Shown here piece by piece: positions 1-22,532 of a stretch of 22,532 bases of DNA. The stretch's first letter is position 1, and each line of letters opens with the position of its first letter. This DNA comes from a virus. Position numbers and translations under genes: made by a program. The notes below the pieces were generated by a model, which was not told the DNA's origin, did not search any database, and was given only the letters and a program-made list of their open reading frames with translations. The DNA is taken from positions 1-22,532 of IMG/VR virus record IMGVR_UViG_3300048547_000037, one strand, 5' to 3'.

Positions 1-2
1 CC

Positions 3-872
3 GTCCCGACTTCAGTTTTTAGAATTCAAGGGATTTCCCTTGGCGCGGTTGGTTTGTATTCTTATTTGCTATCGCATGACAACGACAAGCCGGTGACAAT
101 TTCGTTTTGTGCAAATAATTTCAAGGAAGGCAAAGACGCTATTCGCGCCCGGCTGAAGGAACTTGAAACCTTTGGTTTGGTGCGCCTTGAAACTGTAAAA
201 AATGAAGGTGTTTTTCGTGGTTACAATTACCATTTGATTGACCCCACCGCGTCGGAAAATCCGACACCCCGCGTTGGATTACCCGCAACGGAAAATCCGA
301 CACAAAGAAAATATAATGACAATATAGATATCTATAATGATAATATAATATATAATAACAATAAAGAAAATAATATCATAATAGAAAATAATATTCCTCA
401 AAATCCAAAAACGAAAGATTTTCCGCCGCATATTGAAAAAGCGTTTCCGCATTTTGTTGCATTGTTTCCAAAACGAAATCAACCCAAAACCAAGGCGCAA
501 AAACAAAAATGGTTGGATTGCCTTGACAAAATCGAACGCATTGACAAATACAACCTTCGGGACGTTTATGCCGTTTGCAAGCAACTGCGTCAAGATGATT
601 TTTGGCAAAACGTGTTTTTAAGCATTTTAAAGCTGCGTAATAACGACAAAAACGGCGTGAAGTATGTTGACCGCTTTATGTCACAAAACGCCCTTAGAAC
701 GCGCCCAAATGCGTTTAAACGTGTTTCGGGACTTATTGACTTTGTAACGTATGAAGACAAAGGAAAAAAAATAGGGGCGAAAACATCAAATGGAAATTTG
801 TTTGATTACAACTTGAAACAACTACTTTCCGAAACTGAATACAATGAACTATTCAAATACCTTTACAAATGA
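3..872 (+). CDS. Replication initiator-like winged-helix protein, 5' end cut by window edge
   Basis: The frame is open to the left edge. Codons from position 3 continue a typical N-terminus (VPTSVFRIQGISLGAVGLYS), so the TTG at 54 is not the real start, which lies outside the window. The first ~80 visible residues resemble the winged-helix DNA-binding domain of phage and plasmid replication proteins (SFCANNFKEGKDAIRARLKE as helix-turn-helix, then a beta wing). A low-complexity Asn/Ile linker follows (about nt 305-395), then a helical C-terminal domain rich in Lys and Trp that may contact the helicase or primase. The order of DNA-binding domain, disordered linker encoded by AT-rich DNA, and C-terminal interaction domain recalls lambda O. 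It overlaps the next gene by ATGA (869-872) and lies upstream of the primase-helicase. Initiation is inferred from architecture and context; a DnaD-like loader or a transcription regulator is the alternative. Confidence 0.65.
   Translation, partial: VPTSVFRIQGISLGAVGLYSYLLSHDNDKPVTISFCANNFKEGKDAIRARLKELETFGLVRLETVKNEGVFRGYNYHLIDPTASENPTPRVGLPATENPTQRKYNDNIDIYNDNIIYNNNKENNIIIENNIPQNPKTKDFPPHIEKAFPHFVALFPKRNQPKTKAQKQKWLDCLDKIERIDKYNLRDVYAVCKQLRQDDFWQNVFLSILKLRNNDKNGVKYVDRFMSQNALRTRPNAFKRVSGLIDFVTYEDKGKKIGAKTSNGNLFDYNLKQLLSETEYNELFKYLYK
251..303. repeat. Two iteron-like direct repeats
   Basis: A 15-base word, CGGAAAATCCGACAC, occurs exactly at 253-267 and again at 289-303, start to start 36 bases. 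The first copy lies within a perfect inverted repeat, GTCGGA-AAA-TCCGAC (251-265). The spacer has a further inverted pair (CGTTG / CAACG). The repeats sit inside the initiator-like gene directly before an AT-rich tract, the layout of initiator-binding sites. They also encode a repeated peptide (ENPT), so protein-level repetition is an alternative reason. Confidence 0.6.
304..400. other. AT-rich tract, candidate origin unwinding element
   Basis: Roughly nine in ten bases are A or T over about 90 bases, with many ATAAT/TATA steps, in contrast to the 40%-GC-like flanks. It encodes the Asn/Ile-rich linker of the initiator-like protein and follows the two iteron-like repeats, as a DNA unwinding element would. 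Origin function is inferred. Confidence 0.5.
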
Positions 873-1252
873 AAACAAACGACAATTTTGCTTATGATTT
901 GGAAGTCGGACAAAGGGGCGAAAACATATTTGCCGACCTACTTACGGGAAAAAAAATTGAAGTCAAAACCGACTTCATTGCGTCGCGAACCGGGAACCTT
1001 TATGTTGAATTTGAATGTTGGGGAAAACGAACCGGACTTGCAACAACCAAGGCGGATTTTTGGGTTTTCCTAATCATGAAACAAGGGACAAACAAAAATG
1101 AATTTGGACTTGACGAAATAGAAATTATTAAGTTTGTCAGCACAAATCGACTTAAAACCATTTGTCGCGAATGGTTGAAACACAATGAAAAAGTCAAAGG
1201 CGGACGCGAATCAAACGCCTTTGGTTGTTTAATTAAAATCAATGATATATGA
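869..1252 (+). CDS. PD-(D/E)XK nuclease-like protein
   Basis: 127 residues. The core is D23 (in FADLLTGKK), E31-x-K33 (IEVKTD), an acidic residue followed after a short hairpin by ExK, as in the PD-(D/E)XK nuclease fold. It is followed by a phage-typical segment (TGNLYVEFECWGKRTG and TTKADFWVF) predicted to continue the central beta sheet. Small enzymes of this kind in phage replication modules act on branched or replicating DNA, for example as Holliday-junction resolvases, but the substrate here is unknown. Its ATG overlaps the stop of the initiator-like gene (ATGA), so translation is probably coupled. Fold assignment is moderately firm; role is inferred from position. Confidence 0.6.
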   Translation: MKTNDNFAYDLEVGQRGENIFADLLTGKKIEVKTDFIASRTGNLYVEFECWGKRTGLATTKADFWVFLIMKQGTNKNEFGLDEIEIIKFVSTNRLKTICREWLKHNEKVKGGRESNAFGCLIKINDI

Positions 1253-1377
1253 ACATTTTTAAAAATGAAGTATTGCAATTCAGTTTCTTTGTATTGTTTT
1301 GCGTTTTTACATGGCTTATGTTTTTTGCTAACCTTGCAACGGCGTTTCACGATTGTACAAAATTTTGTACACCATGA
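1249..1377 (+). CDS. Small membrane protein, 42 aa
   Basis: The ORF starts at an ATG overlapping the nuclease stop (ATGA, 1249-1252) and ends at the TGA at 1375-1377. Residues ~9-32 are strongly hydrophobic (LQFSFFVLFCVFTWLMFF), consistent with one transmembrane helix near the N-terminus. Three Cys are present, two of them in the C-terminal tail (DCTKFCTP). No family is recognised. Support is the precise ATGA overlaps at both ends and the lack of any better frame here. Function unknown. Confidence 0.5.
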   Translation: MNIFKNEVLQFSFFVLFCVFTWLMFFANLATAFHDCTKFCTP

Positions 1378-1454
1378 GAACGAAATATGACTTTGCCGCA
1401 ATTGGCTTTTTTGGAATTTTGGTTTGTTTAATTTTTATATTTTTTGCGCAATGA
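1374..1454 (+). CDS. Membrane microprotein, 26 aa
   Basis: This very short ORF is linked to both neighbours by ATGA overlaps (1374-1377 and 1451-1454). After MRTKYDFAA it is almost entirely a hydrophobic helix (IGFFGILVCLIFIFFAQ), so a single-pass membrane peptide with a positively charged start is likely. No family is recognised. The double coupling and the helix make it more credible than a chance ORF, but at 26 codons this stays uncertain. Confidence 0.4.
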   Translation: MRTKYDFAAIGFFGILVCLIFIFFAQ

Positions 1455-1585
1455 AAGATTGGGATTTTATTCAGGCCTGCAAACATTTTAAAACTTTGAA
1501 GGCCGACGAATTTCGTGAAATACTACTGAACAAAGAACACCCGTTGAATGATTATGCGCGTGATTATTTTTATTCAATGGACTAA
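1451..1585 (+). CDS. Small hypothetical protein, 44 aa
   Basis: A soluble, charged 44-residue protein beginning MKDWDFIQACKHFK and ending DYFYSMD. Its ATG overlaps the previous microprotein stop (ATGA). It reads as two short helices and has no recognisable motif. It ends 13 bases before the primase-helicase start and is probably co-transcribed with it. Function unknown. Confidence 0.45.
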   Translation: MKDWDFIQACKHFKTLKADEFREILLNKEHPLNDYARDYFYSMD

Positions 1586-1598
1586 CTAAAAATAAACA

Positions 1599-3281
1599 AT
1601 GATTGAAAAACTTGCAAACCTTGGAATAAATTTGAAGAATAGAACAAACGGGGAATTAAAAACAAAATGTCCGAAGTGTTCACACAACAGAAAAAATAAA
1701 CACGACGAATCCTTGTCGGTTAACATTTCAACCGGACTTTACAATTGCCACAATTGCGGTTGGGCGGGCGGTGTAATGTTTCAAAAAAAATCGGAATACA
1801 TAATTCCGGAAAAAGTAAACGCCGACGTTACCGAACGCGTATTAAAATGGTTTGACGGGCGCGGCATAACCGAACCAACACTTGTTCATTGGCGCATTGG
1901 TGAATCACTTGAATACATGCCGCAAGTGGGTTCAAAGCGTCGTTGTATAAATTTCAACTACTTCCGGGACAATAAGATTGTGAACGTCAAATTTCGTGAC
2001 GGCGAAAAAAACTTCAAAATGACGTCCGGTGCTGAACTTATTTTTTACGGCATTGATAATATAAAAGAATCAAAAACATGTTACATTGTCGAGGGTGAAA
2101 TGGACGCGCTTTCATTGCATGAAGCCGGATTGTATTCTGTTTGTTCAGTTCCAAACGGGGCGTCAAAAGGAAATGCGCGCCTTGATTATTTGGACAACTG
2201 TTTTGAATACTTTAAAAACAAAACCGAAATCGTTCTTTGCACCGATAACGACGACGCCGGGTTGCAATTACGAAATGAACTTGCAAGGCGGTTTGGACAA
2301 CACCGCTGCAAATATGTCGATTTTGGCGACTTTAAAGATGCCAACGAGGTATTGACTACAAAAGGCGCGGAAACGTTACGAAACGTCATCAAAAGCGCGA
2401 AAAACTTTCCATTGGAAGGCGTTTTGAATGTCAATGATATTTGGGAAAACGTTTTGGCGTATAATGAAAAAGGCGTTCAGAATTATTCAATTGGACTTGC
2501 GGAATCGGATTCGTTTTTCAAAATGTCATGGGGCGAATGGACGGTTGTCACCGGCGTTCCCAATTCGGGAAAGTCCGACATTGTTGACCAAATCTTTTGC
2601 AACGTTGCGACAAAATATGGATTCCGTTGCGCTATGTTTGCGCCGGAATCATTTCCATACGAGGGTCATATCAAAAGGATTGCAAACAAACTGAACAACA
2701 AACTTTGCAACAACGACGACCTTGAAAACACAAAGGATTTCATTGAAGAACATTTTCATTGGATTCGGATTGACCTTGAAAATTTGACACTAAAAAACAT
2801 ATTGAATAAGTTCCGGGAACTTGTCTTCCAAAAAGGAATCAACGTTTTTTGTATTGACCCGTTCAATATGCTTGACCATTCGGCGCAAAGGGATTTCAGC
2901 TATATTGGAAAAATACTTTCCGAAATCACACAATTCGTTCAACAAACAAACACCCATTTATTTTTGGTTGCGCACCCGCGAAAAATAGAATCGGAAAATG
3001 GGGTGTACAAAAAGCCGACGTTGTATGACGTTTCGGGTTCCGCTGACTTTTTCAATAAAGCGTACAATGGTTTAATTGTTTACCGTTGCATCGGACAAAA
3101 GACAAGGTACAAATCCGACCTTGTGAAAATATATATTGAAAAAGTAAAGCGCAAGGAAAACGGTCAAATTGGTGATTTTGACGTTGCACCTGACTTTGGT
3201 TCCGGTGGGGTTTACAAACCTATTGACAAAAATGACAAAGCGTTTGAAGTGATAAAGGACAACACGAACATTCCATTTTAA
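1599..3281 (+). CDS. Bifunctional DNA primase-helicase (T7 gp4-like)
   Basis: 560 residues, near the size of T7 gp4. In order: a zinc-binding domain with C24-x2-C27 and C50-x2-C53 (CPKC, CHNC); a TOPRIM primase fold with E165 (VEGEMDA) and D216-N-D218-D219 (CTDNDDAG); and a RecA-type DnaB-family helicase with Walker A G319-x4-GKS326 (GVPNSGKS) and Walker B ending at D420 (VFCIDPF), followed by HLFLVAHPRK, a likely motif H3 region. It would lay RNA primers and unwind DNA at the phage fork as a hexamer. It lies in the replication module behind the initiator-like gene. All catalytic signatures are intact. High confidence. Confidence 0.93.
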   Translation: MIEKLANLGINLKNRTNGELKTKCPKCSHNRKNKHDESLSVNISTGLYNCHNCGWAGGVMFQKKSEYIIPEKVNADVTERVLKWFDGRGITEPTLVHWRIGESLEYMPQVGSKRRCINFNYFRDNKIVNVKFRDGEKNFKMTSGAELIFYGIDNIKESKTCYIVEGEMDALSLHEAGLYSVCSVPNGASKGNARLDYLDNCFEYFKNKTEIVLCTDNDDAGLQLRNELARRFGQHRCKYVDFGDFKDANEVLTTKGAETLRNVIKSAKNFPLEGVLNVNDIWENVLAYNEKGVQNYSIGLAESDSFFKMSWGEWTVVTGVPNSGKSDIVDQIFCNVATKYGFRCAMFAPESFPYEGHIKRIANKLNNKLCNNDDLENTKDFIEEHFHWIRIDLENLTLKNILNKFRELVFQKGINVFCIDPFNMLDHSAQRDFSYIGKILSEITQFVQQTNTHLFLVAHPRKIESENGVYKKPTLYDVSGSADFFNKAYNGLIVYRCIGQKTRYKSDLVKIYIEKVKRKENGQIGDFDVAPDFGSGGVYKPIDKNDKAFEVIKDNTNIPF

Positions 3282-3293
3282 AAAAATTTAATT

Positions 3294-3947
3294 ATGACAA
3301 ATATAACAAACGAGGATTGCATGGAATTAATGTCGCGATTTGACGACAACCATTTTGAACTTGCTATCGTTGACCCGCCTTATGGTATAGGTTTTGGCGA
3401 GTTTAACAGAACAAATAAGGATTCAAATGGCAATAGATATAAAGCCAATAAATACAAACAAGGTAATTGGGATGATTCAATACCGACAGATGATTATTTT
3501 ATAGAGTTAAAAAGAGTAAGTAAAAACCAAATAGTTTGGGGTGGTAATTACTTCCCATTTCTTTGGAAAAAAGGATGTAAAGGGTTTATTTTTTGGTTTA
3601 AAGATAACCCTGTACCAAACTTTTCTGATGGCGAATTAGCTTACACAAGTTTTAATAAAGTGGCTAAACAATTTAATTATCGCTATTATGGAAATTTAGA
3701 AGGTAATACATCGGCAAAAGAAAAATATCACCCAACACAAAAACCCGTTTCACTTTATGAATGGCTTTTGATGAATTATGCAAAAGAAGGCGACAAAATC
3801 CTTGACACCCATTTGGGTTCCGGTTCAATTGCAATTGCATGTCACAACCTTGGATTTGATTTGACGGCGTGCGAAATTGACAAAGAGTATTTTGACGCCG
3901 CAATGAAACGACTTGAACAACACAAAGCACAACAAAGATTGTTTTAA
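3294..3947 (+). CDS. DNA methyltransferase, probably N6-adenine, beta-class order
   Basis: 217 residues. The catalytic motif D27PPY30 precedes the cofactor motif (LDTHLGSGS, 170-178), the order of beta-class amino-methyltransferases. A conserved HPTQKP (146-151) comes just before the cofactor domain. DPPY favours adenine N6 over cytosine N4 as target. It has no restriction partner nearby, so it is an orphan enzyme that may protect phage DNA or mark it. The middle third (about nt 3396-3714) is more AT-rich and uses AGA and TTA codons that are scarce in the flanks, suggesting that the segment was exchanged. It overlaps the next gene by one base (TAATG). Confidence 0.88.
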   Translation: MTNITNEDCMELMSRFDDNHFELAIVDPPYGIGFGEFNRTNKDSNGNRYKANKYKQGNWDDSIPTDDYFIELKRVSKNQIVWGGNYFPFLWKKGCKGFIFWFKDNPVPNFSDGELAYTSFNKVAKQFNYRYYGNLEGNTSAKEKYHPTQKPVSLYEWLLMNYAKEGDKILDTHLGSGSIAIACHNLGFDLTACEIDKEYFDAAMKRLEQHKAQQRLF

Positions 3948-4156
3948 TGGACTACACAAAAGCATTCCGGGCGAAATCATGGTGCAATAAAAACGGCATC
4001 AAAATATACATTGTCGCAACCAAAAAAGGATTGTTCATTGACATTTGGGACAATGGCAAAATCACACGTTCGCCAAACATATATCGAAACAACAAAGACG
4101 CGTCCAAAAAGATTTGGGAATTGTATTTGTATCTTTGTGAAAAATACAAGTCATGA
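3947..4156 (+). CDS. Small hypothetical protein, 69 aa
   Basis: A basic, soluble 69-residue protein beginning MDYTKAFRAKSWCNKNGIKI with a C-terminal helix ending in CEKYKS. The start shares one base with the methyltransferase stop (TAATG), so translation is probably coupled. The pattern of short beta strands (KIYIVATKKGLFIDIW) then a helix suggests a small compact fold. No family is recognised. Confidence 0.55.
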   Translation: MDYTKAFRAKSWCNKNGIKIYIVATKKGLFIDIWDNGKITRSPNIYRNNKDASKKIWELYLYLCEKYKS

Positions 4157-4317
4157 TATTTTCGTTTAGCTTTTTTCCAATTGAGGGAATTGTGTTTGGT
4201 GTTCACTATATAAATTCAGACAACTATCCTGAATTGTTTCAAGAAGAAGTTGAACAAACGCATCATTCATTGCAATTTTTTATTTTAATTTTTGGAATTT
4301 CAATTGTTTGGAAATGA
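4153..4317 (+). CDS. Small hydrophobic protein, 54 aa
   Basis: Begins at an ATG overlapping the preceding stop (ATGA, 4153-4156) and ends at the TGA at 4315-4317, itself overlapped by the next ATG. It has two hydrophobic stretches (MIFSFSFFPIEGIVFG at the start and LQFFILIFGISIVW at the end) around a polar middle, compatible with membrane attachment. No recognisable family. The evidence is the coupled overlaps and composition. Confidence 0.4.
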   Translation: MIFSFSFFPIEGIVFGVHYINSDNYPELFQEEVEQTHHSLQFFILIFGISIVWK

Positions 4318-4442
4318 AATGGAACTTTACACAAATAGCACAAAAACCCCGTAAACGTCGCAAAGGCGTTCATTCAAAGAATGCATCAAAAGGGCAAACC
4401 GGGTACAAACAACCAAGACGGGGACAAGGGAAAAACAGATAA
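4314..4442 (+). CDS. Very basic 42-aa protein
   Basis: 42 residues, ATGA-coupled to the previous ORF. After MKWNFTQIAQ it is dominated by Arg, Lys, Gln and Gly (KPRKRRKGVHSKNASKG, then RRGQGKNR), with almost no acidic residue. Such composition suggests nucleic-acid binding and intrinsic disorder and resembles tails of ribosomal or DNA-binding proteins. No family could be named. It ends six bases before the next gene. Confidence 0.45.
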   Translation: MKWNFTQIAQKPRKRRKGVHSKNASKGQTGYKQPRRGQGKNR

Positions 4443-4448
4443 AACAAA

Positions 4449-4859
4449 ATGAGGTTTGAAAGTCAAAAAGACTTGGAACGCGAAACAAAAGCAATCAAAA
4501 CTTTTTGCGCCGCTTACAATCTAAACTTTGAAAAACAAAGTGATTGGGACGTTGACTTTGTTGTGTTCAATAGTGAATACAAAACGCATGTTGAAGTCAA
4601 AGGGCGGTTGCGATTGATTAAGGATTGTTTTCCTTTACCTTTAGCAATCCGAAAAATATATAAATTGAAAGAAGTCGCCGAAAATCCAATTGTCATTTGG
4701 GCGTGCTTTGACGGCATTGTTTATGCGAAACTGAATGACTTGATTGGTGAAATAAAAAAAGGCGGAAGGAAACCAAGACAAGGAAGTTCAAACGACATTG
4801 AAATCATGGCATACTATCCGAAACAAGAATCAATCAAGGTTTTAAAATATAATCCCTAA
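4449..4859 (+). CDS. PD-(D/E)XK nuclease-like protein
   Basis: 136 residues. An N-terminal helix with E10/E12 leads to D34-V-D36 (WDVDFVVF) and E49-V-K51 (HVEVKGR), which match the Asp and ExK positions of the PD-(D/E)XK core; later strands (NPIVIWACFDGIVYAKL) fit the rest of the sheet. A role in phage DNA recombination or repair, or cutting at packaging, is possible since it lies directly before the terminase genes. It shares only the core with the other two PD-(D/E)XK proteins in this window. Fold likely, role unknown. Confidence 0.6.
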   Translation: MRFESQKDLERETKAIKTFCAAYNLNFEKQSDWDVDFVVFNSEYKTHVEVKGRLRLIKDCFPLPLAIRKIYKLKEVAENPIVIWACFDGIVYAKLNDLIGEIKKGGRKPRQGSSNDIEIMAYYPKQESIKVLKYNP

Positions 4860-4879
4860 TTAAGGCGGTTTTTTTATTT

Positions 4880-4887
4880 TATCTTTG
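4880..4887 (+). promoter_or_regulatory. Putative promoter -7 box TATCTTTG before terminase genes
   Basis: TATCTTTG matches the Bacteroidota -7 consensus TAnnTTTG. It follows a T-rich run and lies only four bases before the small terminase ATG. No TTG is seen at -33 spacing. Transcription would begin at or almost at the start codon, giving a leaderless or near-leaderless mRNA. Confidence 0.55.
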
Positions 4888-4891
4888 CAAC

Positions 4892-5248
4892 ATGGCTACA
4901 AAAACCAACATACTAAAAAACAATTTGATAAAAGCGTTGGAACAATCACTTGGCGTTGTGACAACTGCATGTAAAAAAGTGAAATGCAATCGGTCAACGT
5001 TTTATAAGTATTACAACAATGACCCGAAGTTCAAAGCCGAAGTCGATGCGATTCAAGACATTGCACTTGACTTTGTTGAATCCAAATTGTTTGAACAAAT
5101 CAAAGACGACAATACAACCGCGACAATCTTTTATCTTAAAACAAAAGGAAAAAAACGTGGTTACATTGAACGCCAAGAAATCCAACACGACGGCACTATC
5201 GAATCAAAAATCATTGAATGGTCACCGGCAACGGAAAACGAAGGGTAA
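4892..5248 (+). CDS. terS: Terminase small subunit
   Basis: 118 residues. Residues ~18-45 form a helix-turn-helix (GVVTTACKKVKCNRSTFYKY), followed by a helix (VDAIQDIALDFVESKLFEQI) and the stretch ATIFYLKTKGKKRGY, a combination typical of phage small terminases of the phBC6A51 homeodomain-like type. The protein would recognise the packaging site and load the large subunit. Its gene precedes and overlaps the large terminase gene by 31 bases. It has its own TAnnTTTG promoter. Confidence 0.85.
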   Translation: MATKTNILKNNLIKALEQSLGVVTTACKKVKCNRSTFYKYYNNDPKFKAEVDAIQDIALDFVESKLFEQIKDDNTTATIFYLKTKGKKRGYIERQEIQHDGTIESKIIEWSPATENEG

Positions 5249-6399
5249 AGGAATTTTGCAACCGCCAATTTTATGAAGCGGTAAATTCAAAACAACGAAT
5301 CAAAATTTTTCAGGGCGGTTCGCGTTCCGGGAAATCATGGGCGTTGATGCAATACTGTCTTTACTTAATTACAACAGAATCAAAACCAATAACCATTTCA
5401 ATTGTCCGGAAAACATTGCCGGCATTGAAACGTTCAGTTCTTAGGGACTTCAATATCATTGCAAAATCCCTTGGCGTTTATTACATGGGTGAATTCAACA
5501 AAACCGAATTGGTGTTCAACTACAATGGACACACAATTGAATTCTTTTCAGCCGACGACGCGCAAAAGATTCGAGGTTCAACGCGTGACGTTCTTTGGTG
5601 TGAAGAATGCAACGAACTGAACATTGAAGACTTTCGACAACTTTCAATGCGTACAAAGCGCGAAATCTTAATGTCGTTCAACCCTTCCGACCCGGTGCAT
5701 TTCATTTACGACCTTTGTGAACGTGATGACGCCGACTTGTTCATTTCAACCTATCGTGACAACAAGTTCATTGCGCCGGAAGTGAAAAAGGAATTGGAAC
5801 GCCTGAAGAAACGCGACCCGGACTTTTGGCGTGTTTACGGTGAAGGACAACGCGCGGTGTTCAGTCAACGACAAATCTTTCGTGATTGGAACTACATTGA
5901 CGAATCGGAATTTCCTGAAGAACTTGATTGGTTCATGGGTTGCGATTTCGGCTACACAAATGACGTCGCGGCGATTTGTTTGATTGCAAAGAAGAATGAC
6001 AAAGTGTTTGTCAAAGAAGTATTGTATAAAACGGGAATGACAAATCGCGACATTGCAAATCATTTAAAGTCGTTGGGACTTGAAAACCTTTTGATGTATT
6101 GTGATTCCGCCGAACCAAAGTCAATTGAAGAATTGCGTCAAATGGGAATCTTGGCAAAGGGTGCAATTAAAGGCGCGGGTTCAATCAATGCCGGATTGTC
6201 ATTAATGAAGGAATTTGATTTCTACATTTCCAACAAAGCAACCAACGTCAAATCCGAACAAATGAAATATGTTTGGGAAGAATTAAAAGACGGTACAATT
6301 ATCAACAAAGCGGTTGACCGCGACAACCACGCAATGGATTGCTTGCGCTATGGGTTGTATTCTAAATTCAAAAACCGAAACGAATTCTTTGTCATTTAA
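5218..6399 (+). CDS. terL: Terminase large subunit
   Basis: 393 residues. Walker A is GGSRSGKS (33-40), Walker B with catalytic acid is VLWCEE (125-130), and the coupling region includes MSFNPSDP. The C-terminal RNase H-like nuclease has D243 (CDFGYTND), D296 (YCDSAEP) and D374 (HAMDCLRYG), the three metal-binding acids. It is the ATP-driven packaging motor and headful or cos nuclease. The ATG at 5218 lies within the small-subunit gene; a shorter product starting further in would lose residues before the ATPase, so this start is preferred. All key residues are intact. Confidence 0.95.
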   Translation: MVTGNGKRRVKEFCNRQFYEAVNSKQRIKIFQGGSRSGKSWALMQYCLYLITTESKPITISIVRKTLPALKRSVLRDFNIIAKSLGVYYMGEFNKTELVFNYNGHTIEFFSADDAQKIRGSTRDVLWCEECNELNIEDFRQLSMRTKREILMSFNPSDPVHFIYDLCERDDADLFISTYRDNKFIAPEVKKELERLKKRDPDFWRVYGEGQRAVFSQRQIFRDWNYIDESEFPEELDWFMGCDFGYTNDVAAICLIAKKNDKVFVKEVLYKTGMTNRDIANHLKSLGLENLLMYCDSAEPKSIEELRQMGILAKGAIKGAGSINAGLSLMKEFDFYISNKATNVKSEQMKYVWEELKDGTIINKAVDRDNHAMDCLRYGLYSKFKNRNEFFVI

Positions 6400-6430: not shown

Positions 6431-8674
6431 ATGGCTTCATTACTTCAACGCCTTAGCAATCTAATCACAAAAAACGCGCAACAAACCGCCGCGGCATATA
6501 ATAAGGCAATATATCAGTATTTGGGTGAATCAATCATTTGGAATCCTGAAAATGATGATTCGTACATTCAACAAGGATATCGAAAGAACGCAACAATATA
6601 TTCACTTGTCAATATCATTACAAAAGCGGCAACAACCATTCCGTTTCAAGTGTACGAAAAAACAAATGAAAACGACTTAAAAAGATACAAGGCATTGACA
6701 AGCGGGACAATTGATTCCGGCGCACTTTACAAAGCCGAAATACTAAGAAAGCAAGCGTTGAATGAATTGGAAGGAACGCCGCTTCATGAACTATTGGAAC
6801 GTCCAAATCCTTCGCAATCTTACAATTCATTTTTGACTGAACTTGTTGCGTTTGGGAAATTGACCGGCAACCGATACGTTTATGGGATTGCACCGGAAAC
6901 GGGAATGAATCAAGGGCGTTATTCTGAACTTTATGTCATGCCGTCGCAAGTCATGGAAATTGTTTCGGGCGGTTTTATGCAACCGGTCAAAGGATATCGA
7001 ATTGAATACAACGGGACGTTTGATTTGCCCGCCGACGACATTTGTCACATTAAGGATTTCAACCCTTATTACGACGGAACGGGTTCACATTTATACGGTC
7101 AATCCCCATTGCGTGCCGGACTTCGTTCGCTTACAACAAACAATGAAGCGGTCACAACGGGTGTGAAGTATTTACAAAACCAAACGGCGCGTGGTGTCTT
7201 AATGAGTGAAGAAGGCGACCTTAATGAAATGCAAGCGCAACAATTGAAAGACAAATTCCGCCAACAATTCCAAGGTTCTTCAAACGCCGGTGATGTTATT
7301 ATAACACCAAAAAAATTATCATGGGTGAACTTCGGATTGAACGCCGCGGACGTGTCACTTATTGAACAATACAACGCGTCAATCAAAGATTTGTGCAATG
7401 TTTACAACGTACCCGTTCAGTTATTGAACAACACCGAATCAAGCACATACAACAATATGCGTGAAGCGAAAAAGGCGTTGTATCAAAATTGCGTTATTCC
7501 TGAACTTATCAAAGTACGCGACGAATTGAACCGTTGGTTGGTTCCAAAGTTTGGTGACAATTTATTCCTTGATTTTGATTTCACTTCGATTCCTGAATTG
7601 CAAGAAGAAACGGAAAAAGTCGTTGGACAATTGACGCAAGCGTGGTGGTTGACACCAAACGAAAAACGAATTGCGATGTCTTACGGTCAAGACGAAGACA
7701 CCCCCGCACTTGACGACTACTATATACCGGCGAACCTTATTCCAACACAAAACGTTGGTGTTGAAATGCCCGACCCCGAACCAATTGAAGACCGGAAAGA
7801 AGACAAACCAATTGACGAAATGGTCAAGCTATTCAAGGCACTTGTCCCGGGAATGACCGACGTATTCACAACGGTTGACGAAGCCGAAGCGCGTGCGGTT
7901 GAACTTGGCGGAACGGGACACCATGAACATTCGTTTGACGGCGAAACAGTTTACATGCCTTTTGATTCGCATGAAGAATATGAAGCCGCGATTGAATCGC
8001 AAAAGAACTATCACGATGAAGAAGAAGAAAAAGAAATTTCGGAACGTTTGAAAGCCGCGCTTGAAAATAAGGTTGAAGAACACAACGACGAAGTTGACAA
8101 CGACCCTGACAAATCAACTGACGTTGACACGTTGTTTGAAGTTTATGAACGTGGTGTTGGCGCATATAGAACCAACCCGGAATCAGTTCGACCGAATGTT
8201 TCGTCGCCTGAACAATGGGCAATGGGACGCGTGAATTCTTATTTGTTTGCACTTAGAAACGGAAAGTTTCGTTCAGGAAAACACGACACCGATTTGTTAC
8301 CCGAGGGACACCCAATGAGTTCAAAAGAAGAAGAAGAAAAAAACGGTGACACGTTTGACAACTATCCACAAAGCGCAACCAACAACGCAAAACGAATGAT
8401 TGAATGGCGCGAAAAATACGGTGACGAAGTTACTGCGGGAACGATGACGGGTTGGCGAAGGGCGCGCATGATAGCCGACCGCGACCCTTTGAATGTTGAC
8501 ATGTTGCGAAGAATCAATTCATTTTTTGCACGTCATGAAGGCAACGAGAAAATCGCTGAACAATACAAAGAAACACCATGGAAAGACAACGGGTTCGTTT
8601 CATGGAATCTTTGGGGCGGAACGCAAATGCGTGATTGGGTGAAAGAAACATTGTCCAAATTAGAAAACGAATAA
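6431..8674 (+). CDS. Portal protein with long C-terminal multi-domain extension
   Basis: 747 residues. The first ~440 are an HK97-type portal: IIWNPENDDSYIQQGYRKNA at the start, GTPLHELLERPNPSQS, the clip/stem region, and NVPVQLLNNTESSTYNNM. Portals of this family are usually ~380-450 residues, so the last ~270 are extra. That part contains three segments: EARAVELGGTGHHEHSFDG (~485-503); VYERGVGAYRTNP...PEQWAMGRVNSYL with HDTDLLPEGHP (~567-627); and TGWRRARMIAD...RINSFFARHEG...WNLWGG (~672-733). I recognise these as phage-type accessory domains usually seen in separate or minor head proteins. The linkers are acidic and Glu-rich. The twelve-fold ring would carry these domains at the packaging vertex. 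Confidence 0.9.
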   Translation: MASLLQRLSNLITKNAQQTAAAYNKAIYQYLGESIIWNPENDDSYIQQGYRKNATIYSLVNIITKAATTIPFQVYEKTNENDLKRYKALTSGTIDSGALYKAEILRKQALNELEGTPLHELLERPNPSQSYNSFLTELVAFGKLTGNRYVYGIAPETGMNQGRYSELYVMPSQVMEIVSGGFMQPVKGYRIEYNGTFDLPADDICHIKDFNPYYDGTGSHLYGQSPLRAGLRSLTTNNEAVTTGVKYLQNQTARGVLMSEEGDLNEMQAQQLKDKFRQQFQGSSNAGDVIITPKKLSWVNFGLNAADVSLIEQYNASIKDLCNVYNVPVQLLNNTESSTYNNMREAKKALYQNCVIPELIKVRDELNRWLVPKFGDNLFLDFDFTSIPELQEETEKVVGQLTQAWWLTPNEKRIAMSYGQDEDTPALDDYYIPANLIPTQNVGVEMPDPEPIEDRKEDKPIDEMVKLFKALVPGMTDVFTTVDEAEARAVELGGTGHHEHSFDGETVYMPFDSHEEYEAAIESQKNYHDEEEEKEISERLKAALENKVEEHNDEVDNDPDKSTDVDTLFEVYERGVGAYRTNPESVRPNVSSPEQWAMGRVNSYLFALRNGKFRSGKHDTDLLPEGHPMSSKEEEEKNGDTFDNYPQSATNNAKRMIEWREKYGDEVTAGTMTGWRRARMIADRDPLNVDMLRRINSFFARHEGNEKIAEQYKETPWKDNGFVSWNLWGGTQMRDWVKETLSKLENE

Positions 8675-13120: not shown

Positions 13121-13495
13121 ATGAACACCAACCAAAAAGGTTGTTTCGCTGAATACAAATTTGCAACCGCCGCAATGGAATGCGGTTTGAATGTTTCAAT
13201 GCCTTTGCTTGATTCGTCAAGGTACGATTGTATTGTTGAACATCAAGGGCGGCTTTCAAAAGTCCAAATCAAAAACGCAAATGACCGAAATGAATCTGAA
13301 GAAAAAAAAGGTGTTCATGTCACTATGCTACAAAGCGGAAATTTTTACAATAAAGATTTAGTTGACGTTTTTGCAATCTATGTTTTTGACGGTTTCTTTA
13401 TTATTCCAAATGAAGAACAACGCGCCTTCAGGTTTACACCCGGCGGAAAGTATTCGAATTTTTTTAATAACTTTGCACCATTCTTCAATCAGTAG
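13121..13495 (+). CDS. PD-(D/E)XK endonuclease, homing-type (PDDEXK_5-like)
   Basis: 124 residues. KGCFAEYKFATAAMECG supplies the N-terminal helix with E11, then SRYDCIVEH with D36 and KVQIKNA with Q49-x-K51. The D...QxK form, with Gln replacing the usual Glu, is typical of the group-I-intron-associated PD-(D/E)XK endonucleases. These are often free-standing mobile genes in phage genomes. It is flanked by terminators on both sides and lies between the capsid and connector genes, where no phage function requires a nuclease, so a selfish element is likely. It is the only clear gene here ending in TAG. Upstream, GTAATTTAG is a weak match to a -7 box. Confidence 0.7.
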   Translation: MNTNQKGCFAEYKFATAAMECGLNVSMPLLDSSRYDCIVEHQGRLSKVQIKNANDRNESEEKKGVHVTMLQSGNFYNKDLVDVFAIYVFDGFFIIPNEEQRAFRFTPGGKYSNFFNNFAPFFNQ

Positions 13496-16839: not shown

Positions 16840-18027
16840 ATGGCTTCACTTACGAACACAAAAATAAAAGATACTTATACCGGTTTGGTAAAAACAACCG
16901 GAAATACAACTTTGCCAACTTCCGGCAAAACTTTATTGACCGACGGTGGCGGAAATTCAAGCGCAATGAGTTTGGGACGCGCCAACAATGGGGTTGGTGT
17001 TACCGGTACATTAACCGCAAGTTCACTTGAAGTTGACGGCGATACACTTCATGTTGATTCAACAAACAATCGTGTTGGTATTGGTACAGATACACCCGAC
17101 GTGACATTGGAAATTGACGGGGTAACGCGTGCCGCGAGAGAAGGCATCGCATCACAATACATTGAATTTAAAAGTGATAGTTCGGGAAATCATATTACCG
17201 CCGAAGGTGACAACAAGCAATTTAAAATTTTTAATAATTCCGACACAGATTCAACAATTTTAATCAATGATTCATTAGGTGACGGGATTGAACTTCAACA
17301 AGGTGGAGTAACAAAAGCAAAACTTGATGACAACGCCGCTTTTACTGTTTTATCAGATTCCGAACCAACATTGCAAATTACAAGCACAAAAAACGGGACT
17401 TGGAGTGTTGGTGAATCATTTGGAAGGTTGAATTTTTATGGTTCGGACGCTTCAGGGGTTGGCGCGGGAACAAAAGGTTTTGTAAAAATGCTTGCGGACT
17501 CTATTTATGGCGCAAGTTTTGACATGACTTTTGGAACTTGCGACGGCGCAAGCGCGGCTACTGAAAGAATGAGAATTTTAGCGAACGGCGGATTGACATT
17601 CAATGGAGATACTTCTTCTTTGAACGCCCTTGATGATTATGAGGAAGGCGAATTTGACCCAACGTTTGTTGGAACCGGCGGAACAATTTCGGTCACTTAC
17701 GACGTGCAACAAGGTTTTTATACTAAAATCGGAAACGTTGTTCATTGTGTGATTGGTTTGGGAAGTGACGCGGTTTCAAACGCGTCCGGAAATTTAGAAA
17801 TTCATGGACTTCCATACACAGTTGCAAAAGAAGATAGTTCCGCAACAATTGGTTTGAATTATAGTTTTGGTCAAAATTTAGTTTCTTATAGATTCAGCGC
17901 ACAACAAAACACAACTAAAATTTTAATTTACAATAGCAATACGACATCACAGTATTCAGCGGCAAATTTACTCACCGGAACAAATTCAAATCGGTTGCGT
18001 TTACAATTGACATATTTAACAACATAA
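16840..18027 (+). CDS. Tail fibre / receptor-binding protein
   Basis: 395 residues rich in Ser, Thr, Asn and Gly. The N-terminus (MASLTNTKIKDTYTGLVKTT) is a likely virion anchor. TNNRVGIGTDTPDVTLEID (~77-94) is the repeated beta-turn motif seen in phage fibres that often carry a C-terminal S74 chaperone, which is lacking here. From ~265 a C-terminal domain begins with DYEEGEFDPTFVGTGG, then QQGFYTKIGNVVHCVIGL and ANLLTGTNSNRLRLQLTYLT, a phage-specific beta domain likely to bind the host surface. Adsorption is inferred. Confidence 0.75.
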   Translation: MASLTNTKIKDTYTGLVKTTGNTTLPTSGKTLLTDGGGNSSAMSLGRANNGVGVTGTLTASSLEVDGDTLHVDSTNNRVGIGTDTPDVTLEIDGVTRAAREGIASQYIEFKSDSSGNHITAEGDNKQFKIFNNSDTDSTILINDSLGDGIELQQGGVTKAKLDDNAAFTVLSDSEPTLQITSTKNGTWSVGESFGRLNFYGSDASGVGAGTKGFVKMLADSIYGASFDMTFGTCDGASAATERMRILANGGLTFNGDTSSLNALDDYEEGEFDPTFVGTGGTISVTYDVQQGFYTKIGNVVHCVIGLGSDAVSNASGNLEIHGLPYTVAKEDSSATIGLNYSFGQNLVSYRFSAQQNTTKILIYNSNTTSQYSAANLLTGTNSNRLRLQLTYLTT

Positions 18028-18038
18028 AATAAAAAAAA

Positions 18039-18293
18039 ATGAGTTTAGAAAAACAAACAACAATTGATAAAATTGAAATTGTAACAGAATTCAAATTCAT
18101 TCAAGTTCGTGAATTGACAAAGATTTTAGAAAACGACGAAGTGATTTCGGAAAAATACAAACGTTTTGTTTTCAATCCGAATGACGACTTGAATTCAATG
18201 CCTGAAGAAGTACGCGAAATCGCTGAAAATTTATGGAATGACGAAATCAAAAATTCTTACAATCAGTATTTGTCAGATTCTGAATTGTCTTAA
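18039..18293 (+). CDS. Small hypothetical protein following the fibre, 84 aa
   Basis: 84 acidic residues beginning MSLEKQTTIDKIEIVTEFKF, then IQVRELTKILENDEVISEKY, and a C-terminal helix ending in SDSELS. This pattern (I-E-V-V...I-Q-V-R-x-x-T-x-I) recurs in short proteins coded after fibre genes of marine phages. Possibly a fibre assembly chaperone or minor tail protein; function not known. Confidence 0.65.
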   Translation: MSLEKQTTIDKIEIVTEFKFIQVRELTKILENDEVISEKYKRFVFNPNDDLNSMPEEVREIAENLWNDEIKNSYNQYLSDSELS

Positions 18294-18302
18294 TTTTTTA
18301 AA

Positions 18303-18773
18303 ATGGGTGTAATAAACGGAACAACTTTTTTGTTGTACAAAGACGACGTTGCAATCGGTCACACGTCCGAAACGGCGGTATCTTTGAACGTTGATTTGCC
18401 AACAAGCACAACAAAGGAATCGGAAGGGTTTCAAGAAGTCCTTGCGGGCGTTCGTTCCGGTAGTGTTTCGGCGTCGGGTTTGGTGAACTATGACGACGCG
18501 GTAAACTTTGAAGAACTTGCGGACATGGTATTGACGCGCCAACGTGCTGAATTCTTTTTCACACAATCGACCGGGGCGGGCGGTTTGGTTTTCCAAGGCG
18601 AAGGGTTTTTGACAAGCGTTGAACAAGTTGCGGACAGTGAAGTTGCAACAACCTTTGACATTGAAATTTCAATCACCGGATTGTTTTCAATCATTGACGA
18701 AACCGACGGTGAAGTTTGGAACGCCGCGCAAGACATTTGGAATCAAATTGACGTCAATTGGAATGAAATTTGA
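18303..18773 (+). CDS. Major tail (tube) protein paralogue 1 with W-N extension
   Basis: 156 residues. The core (GHTSETAVSLNVDLPTSTTK, ESEGFQEVLAGVRSGSVSAS) is that of siphovirus tail-tube proteins of the TP901-1 MTP type and pairs closely with the gene at 18821. The last ~20 residues contain W139-N, W146-N and W153-N, seven apart, absent in the second copy. The first copy may cap, decorate or start the tube, or be a minor subunit; not resolved. No separate promoter is seen close upstream. Confidence 0.75.
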   Translation: MGVINGTTFLLYKDDVAIGHTSETAVSLNVDLPTSTTKESEGFQEVLAGVRSGSVSASGLVNYDDAVNFEELADMVLTRQRAEFFFTQSTGAGGLVFQGEGFLTSVEQVADSEVATTFDIEISITGLFSIIDETDGEVWNAAQDIWNQIDVNWNEI

Positions 18774-18796
18774 CAAATTAAAAAAACGTATATTTG
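18769..18796 (+). promoter_or_regulatory. Putative promoter before second tail-tube gene
   Basis: TTTG at 18769-18772, sixteen bases, TATATTTG at 18789-18796. This agrees with the -33/-7 pattern apart from one base of spacing. The ATG is 24 bases further. It would let the second tail-tube copy be made in higher amount. Confidence 0.6.
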
Positions 18797-18820
18797 TATA
18801 AAATTAAATATCATTAAACC

Positions 18821-19258
18821 ATGGCAACATCAGGAGTTTTTTCAGGAACTGACCTAATTGTGAAACTTGACACAAACGGCGGTACACTTGCAAAAGTTGG
18901 TCACACAACTTCATGTTCAATTTCACTTTCAAACGATTTGCCGGAAGCAACAACAAAAGATTCAGGCGGTTTTCAAGAAGTGATTGCCGGTGTTATTTCC
19001 GGGGAAATTTCATTTGACGGTTTAGTTGTTTATGATGAAAGCGGTTCACCAACACCAAAGAACGCGATTGACCTTGCGGATTTCTTATTGGCGCGCACAA
19101 AACTTGACGTTTCATTTGGAACTGAAGAAACGGGCGACGCGGTTTATTCCGCCGACGCGTTTTTATCAAGTGTTGAAATTAGCGCGGAAATGGAAAGTCC
19201 CGTTTCATATTCGGGTTCACTTACTTTGACCGGTGCAATCACCAAGTCAACGAATTAA
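18821..19258 (+). CDS. Major tail (tube) protein paralogue 2
   Basis: 145 residues, related to the previous gene across the whole core: GHTTSCSISLSNDLPEATTK and GGFQEVIAGVISGEISFDGL align with its counterpart without gaps in this stretch. It lacks the W-N extension. Its own promoter and place directly before the tail-assembly chaperones make it the more likely principal tube subunit. It would form stacked hexamer rings around the tape measure. Confidence 0.8.
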   Translation: MATSGVFSGTDLIVKLDTNGGTLAKVGHTTSCSISLSNDLPEATTKDSGGFQEVIAGVISGEISFDGLVVYDESGSPTPKNAIDLADFLLARTKLDVSFGTEETGDAVYSADAFLSSVEISAEMESPVSYSGSLTLTGAITKSTN

Positions 19259-19284
19259 TAAAATAACGTAAAAAGGGGTACATA

Positions 19285-19662
19285 ATGGCAAACAGAAAAA
19301 GGGGATTTTTCACCGTCAAACTTGGTGGGAAAAATCGAACGTTACATTTTAGCATGAATTTTTGGGCAAATTTCACCGACGAAATGGATTTGCCTATTGA
19401 ACAAATCGGAAATGTTTTCCAAGGGGGCGTATCAATTTCAGCGATTCGCGCCCTTGTTTATTCCGCTTTGTTGGCAAATGAACAGGAACAAGGAAACGAA
19501 ATTGATTTCACAATTTTTACCGTTGGCGCATGGCTTGAAGACCTTGACGCAACCGAACTTGAAAAAATTGTTGAAGCGATGACCGAATCAAAAATCCTTG
19601 GAAATGATTTGAACGCCGGCATAAAACGCAACGTCACAAAATCGACTAAGGCGGGAAAGTAA
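19285..19662 (+). CDS. Tail assembly chaperone, short form (gpG-like)
   Basis: 125 residues, opening MANRKRGFFTVKLGGKNRTL and mainly helical, with acidic segments (GNEIDFTIFTVGAWLEDLDA). Tail chaperones of this type coat the tape measure and are not part of the finished virion. The gene lies between tail tube and tape measure, the canonical place. It stops at TAA (19660-19662) directly after the slippery sequence GGGAAAG; most ribosomes end here and some pass into the second frame. An AGGGG six bases before the ATG is one of few SD-like sites seen in the window. Confidence 0.85.
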   Translation: MANRKRGFFTVKLGGKNRTLHFSMNFWANFTDEMDLPIEQIGNVFQGGVSISAIRALVYSALLANEQEQGNEIDFTIFTVGAWLEDLDATELEKIVEAMTESKILGNDLNAGIKRNVTKSTKAGK

Positions 19663-19715
19663 GAACCCGGCTGACTTGGAACCATTTACTTGACTACTAT
19701 ATTGGTCAAGTCGGG
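19653..19715 (+). promoter_or_regulatory. Programmed -1 frameshift site GGGAAAG with downstream stem
   Basis: GGGAAAG at 19653-19659 is in the right phase (G GGA AAG) for a -1 slip and is the heptamer used by lambda G/GT. The zero-frame stop TAA follows at once. Six bases later CCC (19666-19668) plus GACTTG (19673-19678) can pair with CAAGTC plus GGG (19707-19715), leaving a four-base bulge. An alternative seven-pair hairpin, ACTTGAC (19688-19694) with GTCAAGT (19705-19711), competes with it. Confidence 0.8.
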
Positions 19716-19997
19716 ATTTCGCCAAATGAGTTTTGGCAATATACATGGTCGGAAAATCAATTGCTTGGTGAAGCGCACAACATCAAACAAAATTTGGAAT
19801 GGGAACGAACACGTTACATTTCAACAATGTTGTTCAATACCAATTGCAACAAACGGGCGCAAATGATTACACCGGACAAACTTTTTCCGTTGCCACAAGA
19901 CGTCTATTTGGAACGTGGCAAACCTAAGTCAGACCCGAAACAAGCAATGGAATTTTTGAAACGGGTTGAAAAACTGAAAAAAGAAAAAGGGCAATAA
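19659..19997 (+). CDS. T-part of the tail assembly chaperone frameshift product (gpGT-like)
   Basis: This frame has no credible start of its own; it opens after a stop at 19647 and is entered by the -1 slip. The fusion joins 19285-19659 to 19659-19997, 237 residues. The added 112 residues begin VRTRLTWNHLLDYYIGQVGI and contain PNEFWQYTWSENQLLGEAHN, a conserved feature of phage tail chaperone T-parts. They end in a charged helix (VEKLKKEKGQ). In lambda the T-domain binds tail-tube subunits while G binds the tape measure. A separate protein from the TTG at 19761 is an alternative but would omit the conserved start. Confidence 0.8.
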   Translation, partial: VRTRLTWNHLLDYYIGQVGISPNEFWQYTWSENQLLGEAHNIKQNLEWERTRYISTMLFNTNCNKRAQMITPDKLFPLPQDVYLERGKPKSDPKQAMEFLKRVEKLKKEKGQ

Positions 19998-20009
19998 TGT
20001 CCTTTTTTT
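19984..20009 (+). terminator. Hairpin terminator at the end of the chaperone gene
   Basis: AAAAAGGGCA (19984-19993), loop ATAA, TGTCCTTTTT (19998-20007) give a ten-pair stem with one wobble, followed by T. The stop codon lies in the loop (19995-19997). A TAnnTTTG promoter follows nine bases further on. Confidence 0.65.
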
Positions 20010-20015
20010 ATTTTG

Positions 20016-20023
20016 TATTTTTG
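20016..20023 (+). promoter_or_regulatory. Putative promoter before tape measure gene
   Basis: TATTTTTG fits the TAnnTTTG -7 box, between a terminator and the tape measure ATG, 14 bases downstream. No TTG is present at -33 distance. Confidence 0.5.
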
Positions 20024-20037
20024 TTGAAAACTTATCC

Positions 20038-22530
20038 ATGGCAAACACCTTGAAAGTAGTATTGACGGGCGACGCGTCGCAACTGAATTCGGCACTTAAT
20101 AAAACAAGCGCACGTTTGAAAAACTTCGGTTCAAAGGCGCAAGCAATTGGTTCAAAGATTTCAAGGAATTTGACAATGCCGTTGACTTTGGTTGGGGGCG
20201 CATCGGTTAAACTTGCGGTTGACTTTGACAAGTCAATGACAAAGATTGAATCCCTTGTTGGAATTGCGGGTGAAGAAGTTGCCAAAATGGGGGACACCGC
20301 CAAACAAATGGCAACCGACACCGGACGTTCAGCAACTGAAGCCGCCGACGCATTGTTTTTTATTACGTCCGCCGGTTTGGAAGGTTCCGAAGCGATGAAC
20401 GTTTTGGACGCATCTTTGCAAGCCGCCGCGGTTGGACTTGGTGACACCGCAACTGTTGCCGACCTTGCAACGTCCGCAATGAACGCATACGGTTCGGACA
20501 CTTTGGGGGCGTCGGACGCAACCGACGTTTTGGTTGCCGCGGTTCGTGAAGGAAAACTTGAATCCTCTGAACTTGCCGGCGCAATGGGTTCGGTTTTGCC
20601 AATTGCATCAAACATGGGTGTTTCATTCAACGAAGTGGGTGCGGCATTTGCGGCAATGTCCCGAACGGGTACGAACGCCGCGGTTGCATCAACACAATTG
20701 CGTGGAATCCTTAATGGCTTATTGAAGCCAACAAAAGACGCTGAAGACGCGCTTTCCGGAATGGGATTGTCGTCGGCGGGACTTCGTCAATCTTTGAAAG
20801 AAGACGGGCTTTTGGCAACCCTTGAAATTTTAAAAACAAACTTTGAAGGCAATGACCAAGCCGCCGCAAAGGTGTTCGGAAACGTTCGTGCATTGTCCGG
20901 GGTTATGGATTTGTTGGGTGCGGGGGTTGATTCAACGCGTGAAATCTTTGCGGAAATGAACAACGTTCAGGGCGCAACGGCAACCGCATTTGAAGCAACA
21001 TCACAATCCGCGTCATTCCAATTGCAAAAAGCATTGAACGGCGTTCGTAATTCATTGACCGAAGTTGGGGGAACTTTATTGTCGGCGGTATTGCCACACA
21101 TTCAAAAATTCACAAGTTTCATTCAAGGATTGATTCAATCTTTTATGAACCTAAGTCCACAAACACAAAGTTTGGTTTTGGGACTTACTGCAATTGCCGC
21201 GGCACTTCCGGCAATTTTAAGCGTTGCGGGTGCATTAGCAACGGCACTTGGTGCGATATTGACGCCCGCCGGACTTGTTGTTGCCGCGCTTGCGGCGGTT
21301 GCAACAATTGTTGTTCAAAATTGGGGTGCGGTCAAAAAGGGACTTGTTGACGTTGCAAACTATTTTATTGACCTTTACAATGAATCATTGGCGTTTCGTT
21401 TAATCATTGAGGGGTTTGTCGCATTATTCAAAACAATTTTTGACGCCGGTGTTGCGCTTGTAAACGGCTTAATCAATCAATTCAAAATTGCCGGAAATTT
21501 TATTTCGGGACTTTTTTCAAACGTTGGAAAAATTGTGCAAGGTGCTTTTTCATTAAGTCCAAGCATGATAAAAGAAGGACTTGCGGGAATTAGTGACGCC
21601 CTTGTTGAAGGTGTTACGGAAACGGCGGGAAATGTCAAAGACGTGTTTGCTGACATTGGAACCGCGGGTGCTGACAACTTTACTGAAGCATTTGAAAAAT
21701 CTATGCGTCCGCAAAAGATTGCGAACGTGACTGAAGAAGGGTTGCAACAAGGAATTGACAATGGATTGCAACGACTTCAAAATGGAATTGCAAATATCGT
21801 TTCAGGCGGTGGGATTGCCGCAAGCGCAGTGGGCGGAACGACTGCAACAACAACCGGTGGGGGTGACGCCGACCCAACATTTGGAAGTACTTTTGGCGCG
21901 GTTGATAGCGGAATTGTTGACCCTGAAACAATTGAATTCATTGACGATTCGGTTGACTTTGACGCATTGCACCAAGGTATTGACGCAACGGTAACAAAAA
22001 TGCAAACAATGCAATCGGTTTCGCAAAAAATGGGACAAGGTATTCAAGACGCATTTGGACAAATGGGTGAATCAATTGTCGCAACCCTTGGACTTGCTGA
22101 CGGCGCATTTGGTGCATTTCTTTCGTCATTTATTACAAACGCATTACAATTCATTGCGGTCAATTTAGCGCAATCAATGGGGTTTGCGGTTTCGTCAGCG
22201 GCACAATCCGCCGCGTCGTCCGGTCCATTTGCCGCGTTTGTACTTCCGGCACTTATTGCCGGGGCAACCGCCGCCGTTTCGGGTGCATTCAAAAAGATTC
22301 CAAAATTTGCCGACGGTGGTATTGTGTCAACGCCGACAATGGGAATGTTTGGTGAATATACCGGTGCGCGTCAAAATCCTGAAGTTGTTGCACCGCTTGA
22401 CCGTTTGACATCAATGATTCAACCAAGGGGCGCGCAACAAGTTGACGTTGGCGGTTCATTCCAATTGCGTGGTCAGGACCTTGTCGTTGCATTGCAACGC
22501 GCTGAAACAAATCGTGGACGTATTAAATAA
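20038..22530 (+). CDS. Tail tape measure protein
   Basis: 830 residues, starting MANTLKVVLTGDASQLNSAL with the TP901-type core (AVDFDKSMTKIESLVG, ADALFFITSAGLEGSEAMNV, LRGILNGLLKPTKDAEDALS). A hydrophobic stretch at ~377-425 (SLVLGLTAIAAALPAIL and following) is the usual membrane-active region. The C-terminus has a second hydrophobic part and FADGGIVSTPTMGMFGE, typical of tape measure ends. It sets tail length and helps DNA entry: 830 residues at ~1.5 A each gives roughly 120 nm. Ends two bases before the window edge. High confidence. Confidence 0.93.
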   Translation: MANTLKVVLTGDASQLNSALNKTSARLKNFGSKAQAIGSKISRNLTMPLTLVGGASVKLAVDFDKSMTKIESLVGIAGEEVAKMGDTAKQMATDTGRSATEAADALFFITSAGLEGSEAMNVLDASLQAAAVGLGDTATVADLATSAMNAYGSDTLGASDATDVLVAAVREGKLESSELAGAMGSVLPIASNMGVSFNEVGAAFAAMSRTGTNAAVASTQLRGILNGLLKPTKDAEDALSGMGLSSAGLRQSLKEDGLLATLEILKTNFEGNDQAAAKVFGNVRALSGVMDLLGAGVDSTREIFAEMNNVQGATATAFEATSQSASFQLQKALNGVRNSLTEVGGTLLSAVLPHIQKFTSFIQGLIQSFMNLSPQTQSLVLGLTAIAAALPAILSVAGALATALGAILTPAGLVVAALAAVATIVVQNWGAVKKGLVDVANYFIDLYNESLAFRLIIEGFVALFKTIFDAGVALVNGLINQFKIAGNFISGLFSNVGKIVQGAFSLSPSMIKEGLAGISDALVEGVTETAGNVKDVFADIGTAGADNFTEAFEKSMRPQKIANVTEEGLQQGIDNGLQRLQNGIANIVSGGGIAASAVGGTTATTTGGGDADPTFGSTFGAVDSGIVDPETIEFIDDSVDFDALHQGIDATVTKMQTMQSVSQKMGQGIQDAFGQMGESIVATLGLADGAFGAFLSSFITNALQFIAVNLAQSMGFAVSSAAQSAASSGPFAAFVLPALIAGATAAVSGAFKKIPKFADGGIVSTPTMGMFGEYTGARQNPEVVAPLDRLTSMIQPRGAQQVDVGGSFQLRGQDLVVALQRAETNRGRIK

Positions 22531-22532
22531 AA

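Follow-up and report, generated by a model that had tools for sequence, protein, structure and literature searches.

Loss of GATC from a clade of uncultured phages, best read as restriction-site avoidance with fast turnover

The phage genome and its genes

The IMG/VR virus record IMGVR_UViG_3300048547_000037 is 22,532 bp long, and all of it was analysed here; this stretch is referred to as the window. Its genes encode a primase/helicase, a small N6/N4 methyltransferase, a terminase, a portal, head and tail proteins and an amidase, and the subject of this report is the tetranucleotide GATC, which occurs nowhere in it. String counts over the whole stretch (1..22532, a feature without strand) found no GATC on either strand, no CTAG, no CTGG/CCAG, no GAGC/GCTC and four copies of GGCC.

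Two genes served as queries for relatives. The terminase large subunit (5218..6399, plus strand), whose tblastn matches fell on annotated terminases, was used to find the closest relatives, and the portal protein (6431..8674, plus strand; PF04860, phrog_12) was used to build a wider family tree. A search of a phage collection with the window DNA returned no near match. At the protein level the amidase reaches 54% identity among the listed matches, and the terminase, primase and capsid reach about 30-38% among theirs, many of which, though not all, are Bacteroidota phages.

Absence of GATC beyond composition and codon use

A reading of the window made from its sequence alone (the sequence-only reading) had claimed that GATC is wholly absent, and the exact count is indeed 0. 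The number expected depends on the model: base composition (zero-order) predicts 80.3, a maximal-order Markov model predicts 38.0, and 300 order-2 simulations of the window had a mean of 38.0 and a minimum of 19. The figure of about 80 that had been offered from the sequence is thus correct as a zero-order expectation, while roughly half as many sites are expected under the stricter models, and the Markov comparison which that reading proposed as a check still sets 0 sites against 38.0. Its statements on codons are exact, as none of the 99 ATC codons is preceded by a codon ending in G and none of the 134 GAT codons has C next; before C, aspartate is encoded by GAC in 50 of 50 cases. Codon use had been judged insufficient to account for the absence, and this judgement holds because 500 synonymous-codon shuffles (33 genes, 7,005 codons; mean 45.8, standard deviation 5.6) never gave fewer than 28 GATC sites. 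The short palindrome GATC has therefore been lost from the window beyond compositional and codon expectation.

Other words, which the sequence-only reading had not named, are reduced as well. Among palindromes, CTAG occurs 0 times against 6.6 expected and GGCC 4 times against 38.6, and TGCA, GCGC and CCGG show no reduction. Two non-palindromic pairs are also missing, namely CTGG/CCAG (0 versus 26.9) and GAGC/GCTC (0 versus 10.0). As a separate observation, AATT falls below its Markov expectation (299 versus 386) yet matches the codon shuffles (259 versus 260).

Conservation of the loss within the window clade

The terminase search found 18 IMG/VR loci, the first 100% identical to the window and the others 93-99%, and GATC is absent from each of them. 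In 19 clade contigs amounting to 256,654 bases (small overlaps counted twice), 0 GATC sites stand against 447 expected; only the first 28,000 bases of contig 3300030380 entered this count, since another phage follows. Owing to their common descent these 19 contigs represent one long-kept state and not 19 independent ones. In contig G002 the first 33,510 positions are free of GATC, and the remainder, where genes of another phage follow, holds 39 copies.

The structure of that contig is an observation in its own right. In G002 (L029-L031; about 28361-35194) and in G006 (L024-L028), a clade member is joined to a second phage inside a long open reading frame, and the second phage has its own portal and primase. 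The junction may be real or may be a chimera that arose during assembly. That the second parts are host DNA was considered and ruled out by the gene list and the PHROG matches, which include the second portal and the second primase. A further feature of the clade is a gene at 869-1252 of the window (127 aa; phrog_13596, function not assigned), which among the loci searched was found in window-clade contigs only.

Variation of GATC and other palindromes in the wider family

The best 80 of 494 portal relatives were kept, giving a tree of 81 portals with the window included. Counts below 0.15 of the zero-order expectation were found for GATC in 40 of the 81 rows, for GGCC in 55 and for CTAG in 41. 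On this tree GATC changed state at least 10 times, GGCC at least 9 times and CTAG at least 6 times, the direction of change not being resolved. Relatives with 61-75% portal identity often have normal GATC, and the two states may even be found in one metagenome. In metagenome 3300030380, L047 has 0 GATC against 37 expected and L077 has 30 against 32; in metagenome 3300017910, L011 has 0 against 18 and L052 has 37 against 37. Since contigs with and without GATC come from the same metagenomes, a library artefact is very unlikely. The clade of L060 has to be read differently, as GATC is rare there because GAT and ATC are themselves scarce (Markov expectation 1-5, and L060 itself has 12 against 4), so that this clade gives no evidence for GATC-specific loss. 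The GATC state thus varies among lineages and is not tied to one composition.

For a survey of all tetranucleotides, 62 of the 81 portal rows were placed in 18 groups, with 19 rows omitted as duplicates, short contigs or unplaced, and a word was called lost when it fell below a quarter of its Markov expectation. Lost words were found in 39 of 263 tests of palindromes and in 13 of 2,076 tests of non-palindromes, an excess with a Fisher p of about 1e-27 that carries no correction for shared descent. GGCC was lost in 10 of 16 groups, GATC in 7 of 18, CCGG in 6 of 13, CGCG in 5 of 11, CATG in 5 of 18, CTAG in 4 of 17 and ACGT in 2 of 15, while the other nine palindromic tetranucleotides were lost in no group. 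Two of the seven groups that lost GATC in this test are two parts of the window clade. The lost palindromes occur in varying combinations among the 18 groups, and well-known Type II enzymes recognise each of the seven. CATG is likewise missing from two relatives in Flavobacteriaceae metagenome-assembled genomes (MAGs), with 0 against 16 expected in L198 and 0 against 41 in L199.

Candidate hosts and restriction enzymes

Alignment of the portal against genome contigs matched four contigs, two distant ones of which lie in Flavobacteriaceae MAGs; the corresponding portals, in one Aequorivita MAG and one Flavobacteriaceae MAG, are 49% identical. The same alignment with the terminase found no relative. 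A host of the window phage among the Flavobacteriia, as the sequence-only reading had proposed, is plausible from these portals. Two further phage contigs of the family, L196 and L197, are found in MAGs labelled Rhodobiaceae and Woesearchaeota, a placement which is probably due to misbinning.

Enzymes of the DpnII/MboI type and of the Sau3AI type cut GATC. A scan for enzyme families covered 199 genomes of Flavobacteriaceae, to which the Aequorivita MAG belongs. DpnII-type proteins scored above the cut-off in 3 genomes, each adjoined by a D12 methyltransferase, and the locus tested (L200) has the order Dam-family methyltransferase, DpnII, N6/N4 methyltransferase. The MutH/Sau3AI family was found in 7 genomes as open frames of 465-481 aa, and the one tested (L206) scores with the Sau3AI family. 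HaeIII-type proteins were found in 5 genomes, the tested one (L210) adjoining a cytosine methyltransferase. The DpnII/MboI- and Sau3AI-type gene clusters of Flavobacteriaceae would cut GATC and hence select for its loss; they come from a sample of 199 genomes of one family (3 and 7 of them) and not from a demonstrated host of the window phage. According to an excerpt of a study of 17 strains of Flavobacterium psychrophilum, this species has about 10 methyltransferases on average, and enzymes for CCGG and CGCG together with a GATC methyltransferase are listed for strain CSF259-93 (PMC11837570).

Comparison with known phages

Several described phages of Bacteroidota, of which 29-37 kb each was examined, resemble the window in this respect. 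GATC and GGCC are strongly reduced in the Flavobacterium phages snusmum9-1 and tooticki6-1 and in the Riemerella-type phage PJN03, which have 3, 2 and 4 GATC against Markov expectations of 65, 66 and 89, respectively. These phages have related primase or capsid proteins, at an identity of only about 32-37%. They differ from the window in that each still has 2-4 GATC, over 35 kb examined per phage, and in the other words lost: PJN03 has 0 CATG and 1 ACGT, and snusmum9-1 and tooticki6-1 have 4-5 CTAG. A full-text literature search for GATC together with Flavobacterium phages found no paper, and a further search led to the Flavobacterium restriction-modification study cited above.

Restriction-site avoidance as the best reading

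We infer that a restriction enzyme is the agent and that Flavobacteriia are the hosts. The most likely explanation, to which we assign a probability of about 0.85, is that GATC was purged by selection because a Type II enzyme in the hosts of the clade cuts the unmethylated site. Past or present hosts would carry an enzyme like DpnII/MboI or Sau3AI, a genome without GATC would escape cutting, and newly arisen mutants with GATC would be eliminated. With other enzymes, the same process would account for the window clade's loss of GGCC and CTAG and for that of CATG, CCGG, CGCG and ACGT in relatives.

That phages shed Type II sites is well established. According to the available part of Rusinov et al. 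2018, about one-tenth of viral genomes show complete or almost complete elimination of a site, almost only for orthodox Type II systems (PMC6286503). The window resembles the avoidance described there in that a Type II palindrome is lost completely or nearly so beyond composition. It differs from that account, as far as the same part of the source goes, in that several sites are lost jointly and the set varies between close relatives, and in that some non-palindromic words are missing too. The best reading of the window clade is restriction-site avoidance of this known kind, complete for GATC and with fast turnover. The sequence-only reading had also suggested restriction avoidance; the loss not due to codons, its variability among relatives, the pattern of lost palindromes and the presence of GATC cutters in a minority of Flavobacteriaceae support the suggestion.

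Several results weigh against this explanation. The GATC-cutter families gave 10 hits (3 + 7) across the 199 genomes, whose carriers are not demonstrated hosts, the Aequorivita MAG had no DpnII, MutH or HaeIII-type match, and no host of the clade was paired with a restriction enzyme. The GATC methyltransferase of CSF259-93 has no partner nuclease in the excerpt of the F. psychrophilum study (PMC11837570). Among phages, Cellulophaga phi10:1 is only partly depleted in GATC (21 versus 81), and the Bacteroides phages BD166P1 (91 versus 87) and BK745P4 (191 versus 152) are not depleted; among phages of Bacteroidota, GATC depletion is thus frequent without being the rule, and it is complete in none of the six compared. 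Finally, the absence of CCAG/CTGG and GAGC/GCTC and the scarcity of CTC/GAG in the window are unexplained by Type II palindromes.

Scarce trinucleotides and non-palindromic words

In the closest group of the window, the ratio to expectation is 0.09 for CTC/GAG, 0.21 for CTA/TAG and 0.30 for CAG/CTG, and it is normal, at 1.16, for CTT/AAG. GAG occurs 10 and 10 times across codon boundaries of the window, compared with 86 and 25 in shuffles, CTC occurs 2 and 2 times compared with 25 and 76, and the intergenic DNA (1,585 bases) has 3 GAG against 15. The scarcity of CTC/GAG does not depend on reading frame, as these counts at codon boundaries and between genes show. Other clades have other scarce words, namely ATC (0.25) and TCA (0.23) in L060, GAC (0.19) in L064, and CpG words (0.12-0.39) in L098, L114, L102 and L099. 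In twelve Flavobacteriaceae stretches (43 kb around restriction genes) CTC stands at 357.5 against 372, and a common host signature is therefore not an obvious cause.

CCAG/CTGG is absent from the window and from five close contigs grouped with it. L004, which lies inside the window's subclade, carries CTGG/CCAG sites, so the loss is incomplete even there, and many other clade members have some. Both CTGG/CCAG and CTAG are at 0 in the window, L002, L006, L007, L008, L014, L018 and G001, and both are present in other close relatives such as G002, L010 and L012. GAGC/GCTC occurs 0 to 1 times in most clade contigs; the 33-kb stretches of G002 and G006 have 7 each, most of which lie close to where the other phage joins.

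Beyond the Type II palindromes, some agent not yet described may act in this phage family on words of three letters and on asymmetric words of four, a reading that is rather unlikely, though worth considering. The trinucleotide losses would fit a defence, or a modification of the DNA, that recognises very short words and switches between clades. Alternatively, lineage-specific mutation bias may lie behind them; conservation of the scarce trinucleotides among close relatives does not separate mutation from selection.

Other explanations for the loss of GATC

GATC, GGCC and GAAC/GTTC are contexts of phosphorothioation. The loss of both GATC and GGCC in the window clade would agree with a defence that reads these words but is not orthodox Type II restriction, for example a Dnd-like phosphorothioate system. 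GAAC/GTTC, however, is normal in the window (144 versus 135), and the losses of CTAG in the window clade and of CATG, CCGG, CGCG and ACGT in relatives better fit varied Type II sites. Such a defence is very unlikely to be the cause.

It is also conceivable that the phage avoids its own nuclease or methyltransferase acting on GATC, for its genes in the window include a small methyltransferase and a pair of PDDEXK nucleases. The N6/N4 DNA methyltransferase (3294..3947, plus strand; 217 aa) matches PF01555, in the C-terminal part of the profile only, and phrog_67, in agreement with the earlier recognition of a methyltransferase gene from the sequence. The nucleases are a putative phage endonuclease of the PDDEXK_14 family (4449..4859, plus strand; 136 aa; PF24579) and a PDDEXK_5 endonuclease (13121..13495, plus strand; 124 aa; PF11645). 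The methyltransferase scan kept 80 of 591 relatives. Among the loci searched, the window, L044/L006 and L008 carry the methyltransferase, and it was not found in the clade members L047, L049 and L055; all of these have 0 GATC. Its homologues occur in L052, L072, L081, L090 and L112, which bear GATC, and PDDEXK_5 has homologues in relatives both with and without the site; GATC-rich relatives with methyltransferase or PDDEXK_5 homologues include L052, L072, L081 and L083. Among the loci searched, PDDEXK_14 was found in no more than four, from three contigs: the window, L008, and L001 and L055, which belong to a single contig. No association of any of the three genes with GATC state was seen among these loci, and self-avoidance is highly improbable. 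In the clade the methyltransferase gene occurs sporadically.

A third alternative is the decay of GATC to GATT or AATC through deamination, after methylation of its cytosine by the host or the phage. Both words exceed their Markov expectations in the window (182 versus 120 and 177 versus 122, respectively), an excess which is arithmetically expected when GATC is missing from the Markov table, and cytosine-type GATC methylation is reported for F. psychrophilum in the excerpted study (PMC11837570). Window genes were aligned to nine sister loci (the L051 and L077 groups), yielding 59 alignments with 151 GATC positions in the sisters; the comparisons are pooled, non-independent and unpolarised. 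At these positions the window has GACC 39 times, GTTC 34 times, GAAC 12 times, GATT 6 times, AATC twice, other words at the rest and GATC never, and the encoded residues are the same in 82 of the 151 comparisons. With so few GATT and AATC, cytosine deamination was not the route; this explanation is scarcely credible, and the methylation-linked process that the sequence-only reading had offered as an alternative is disfavoured. The window likewise kept none of the sisters' other avoided words (GGCC 0/99, CTAG 0/32, CTGG 0/49, CCAG 0/41, GAGC 0/42, GCTC 0/24), and eleven control words were kept at 10-63%, from GTAC (6/58) to CATG (22/35).

The chance that coincidence, codon use or a library artefact such as digestion with a GATC cutter produced the pattern is very small, for although 38 sites instead of 80 are expected once the unusual trinucleotides of the window are taken into account, the synonymous shuffles never approached zero, the GATC-bearing L077 and L052 share metagenomes with the GATC-free L047 and L011, and G002 regains GATC in its adjoining other-phage part.

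Significance for the phage family

One phage family provides a natural series in which avoidance of GATC, GGCC, CTAG, CATG, CCGG, CGCG and ACGT varies between relatives. From such a series the restriction systems met by each lineage could be inferred, which would aid in finding the hosts of uncultured phages. Losses of trinucleotides that palindromes leave unexplained point to a further pressure that is worth identifying.

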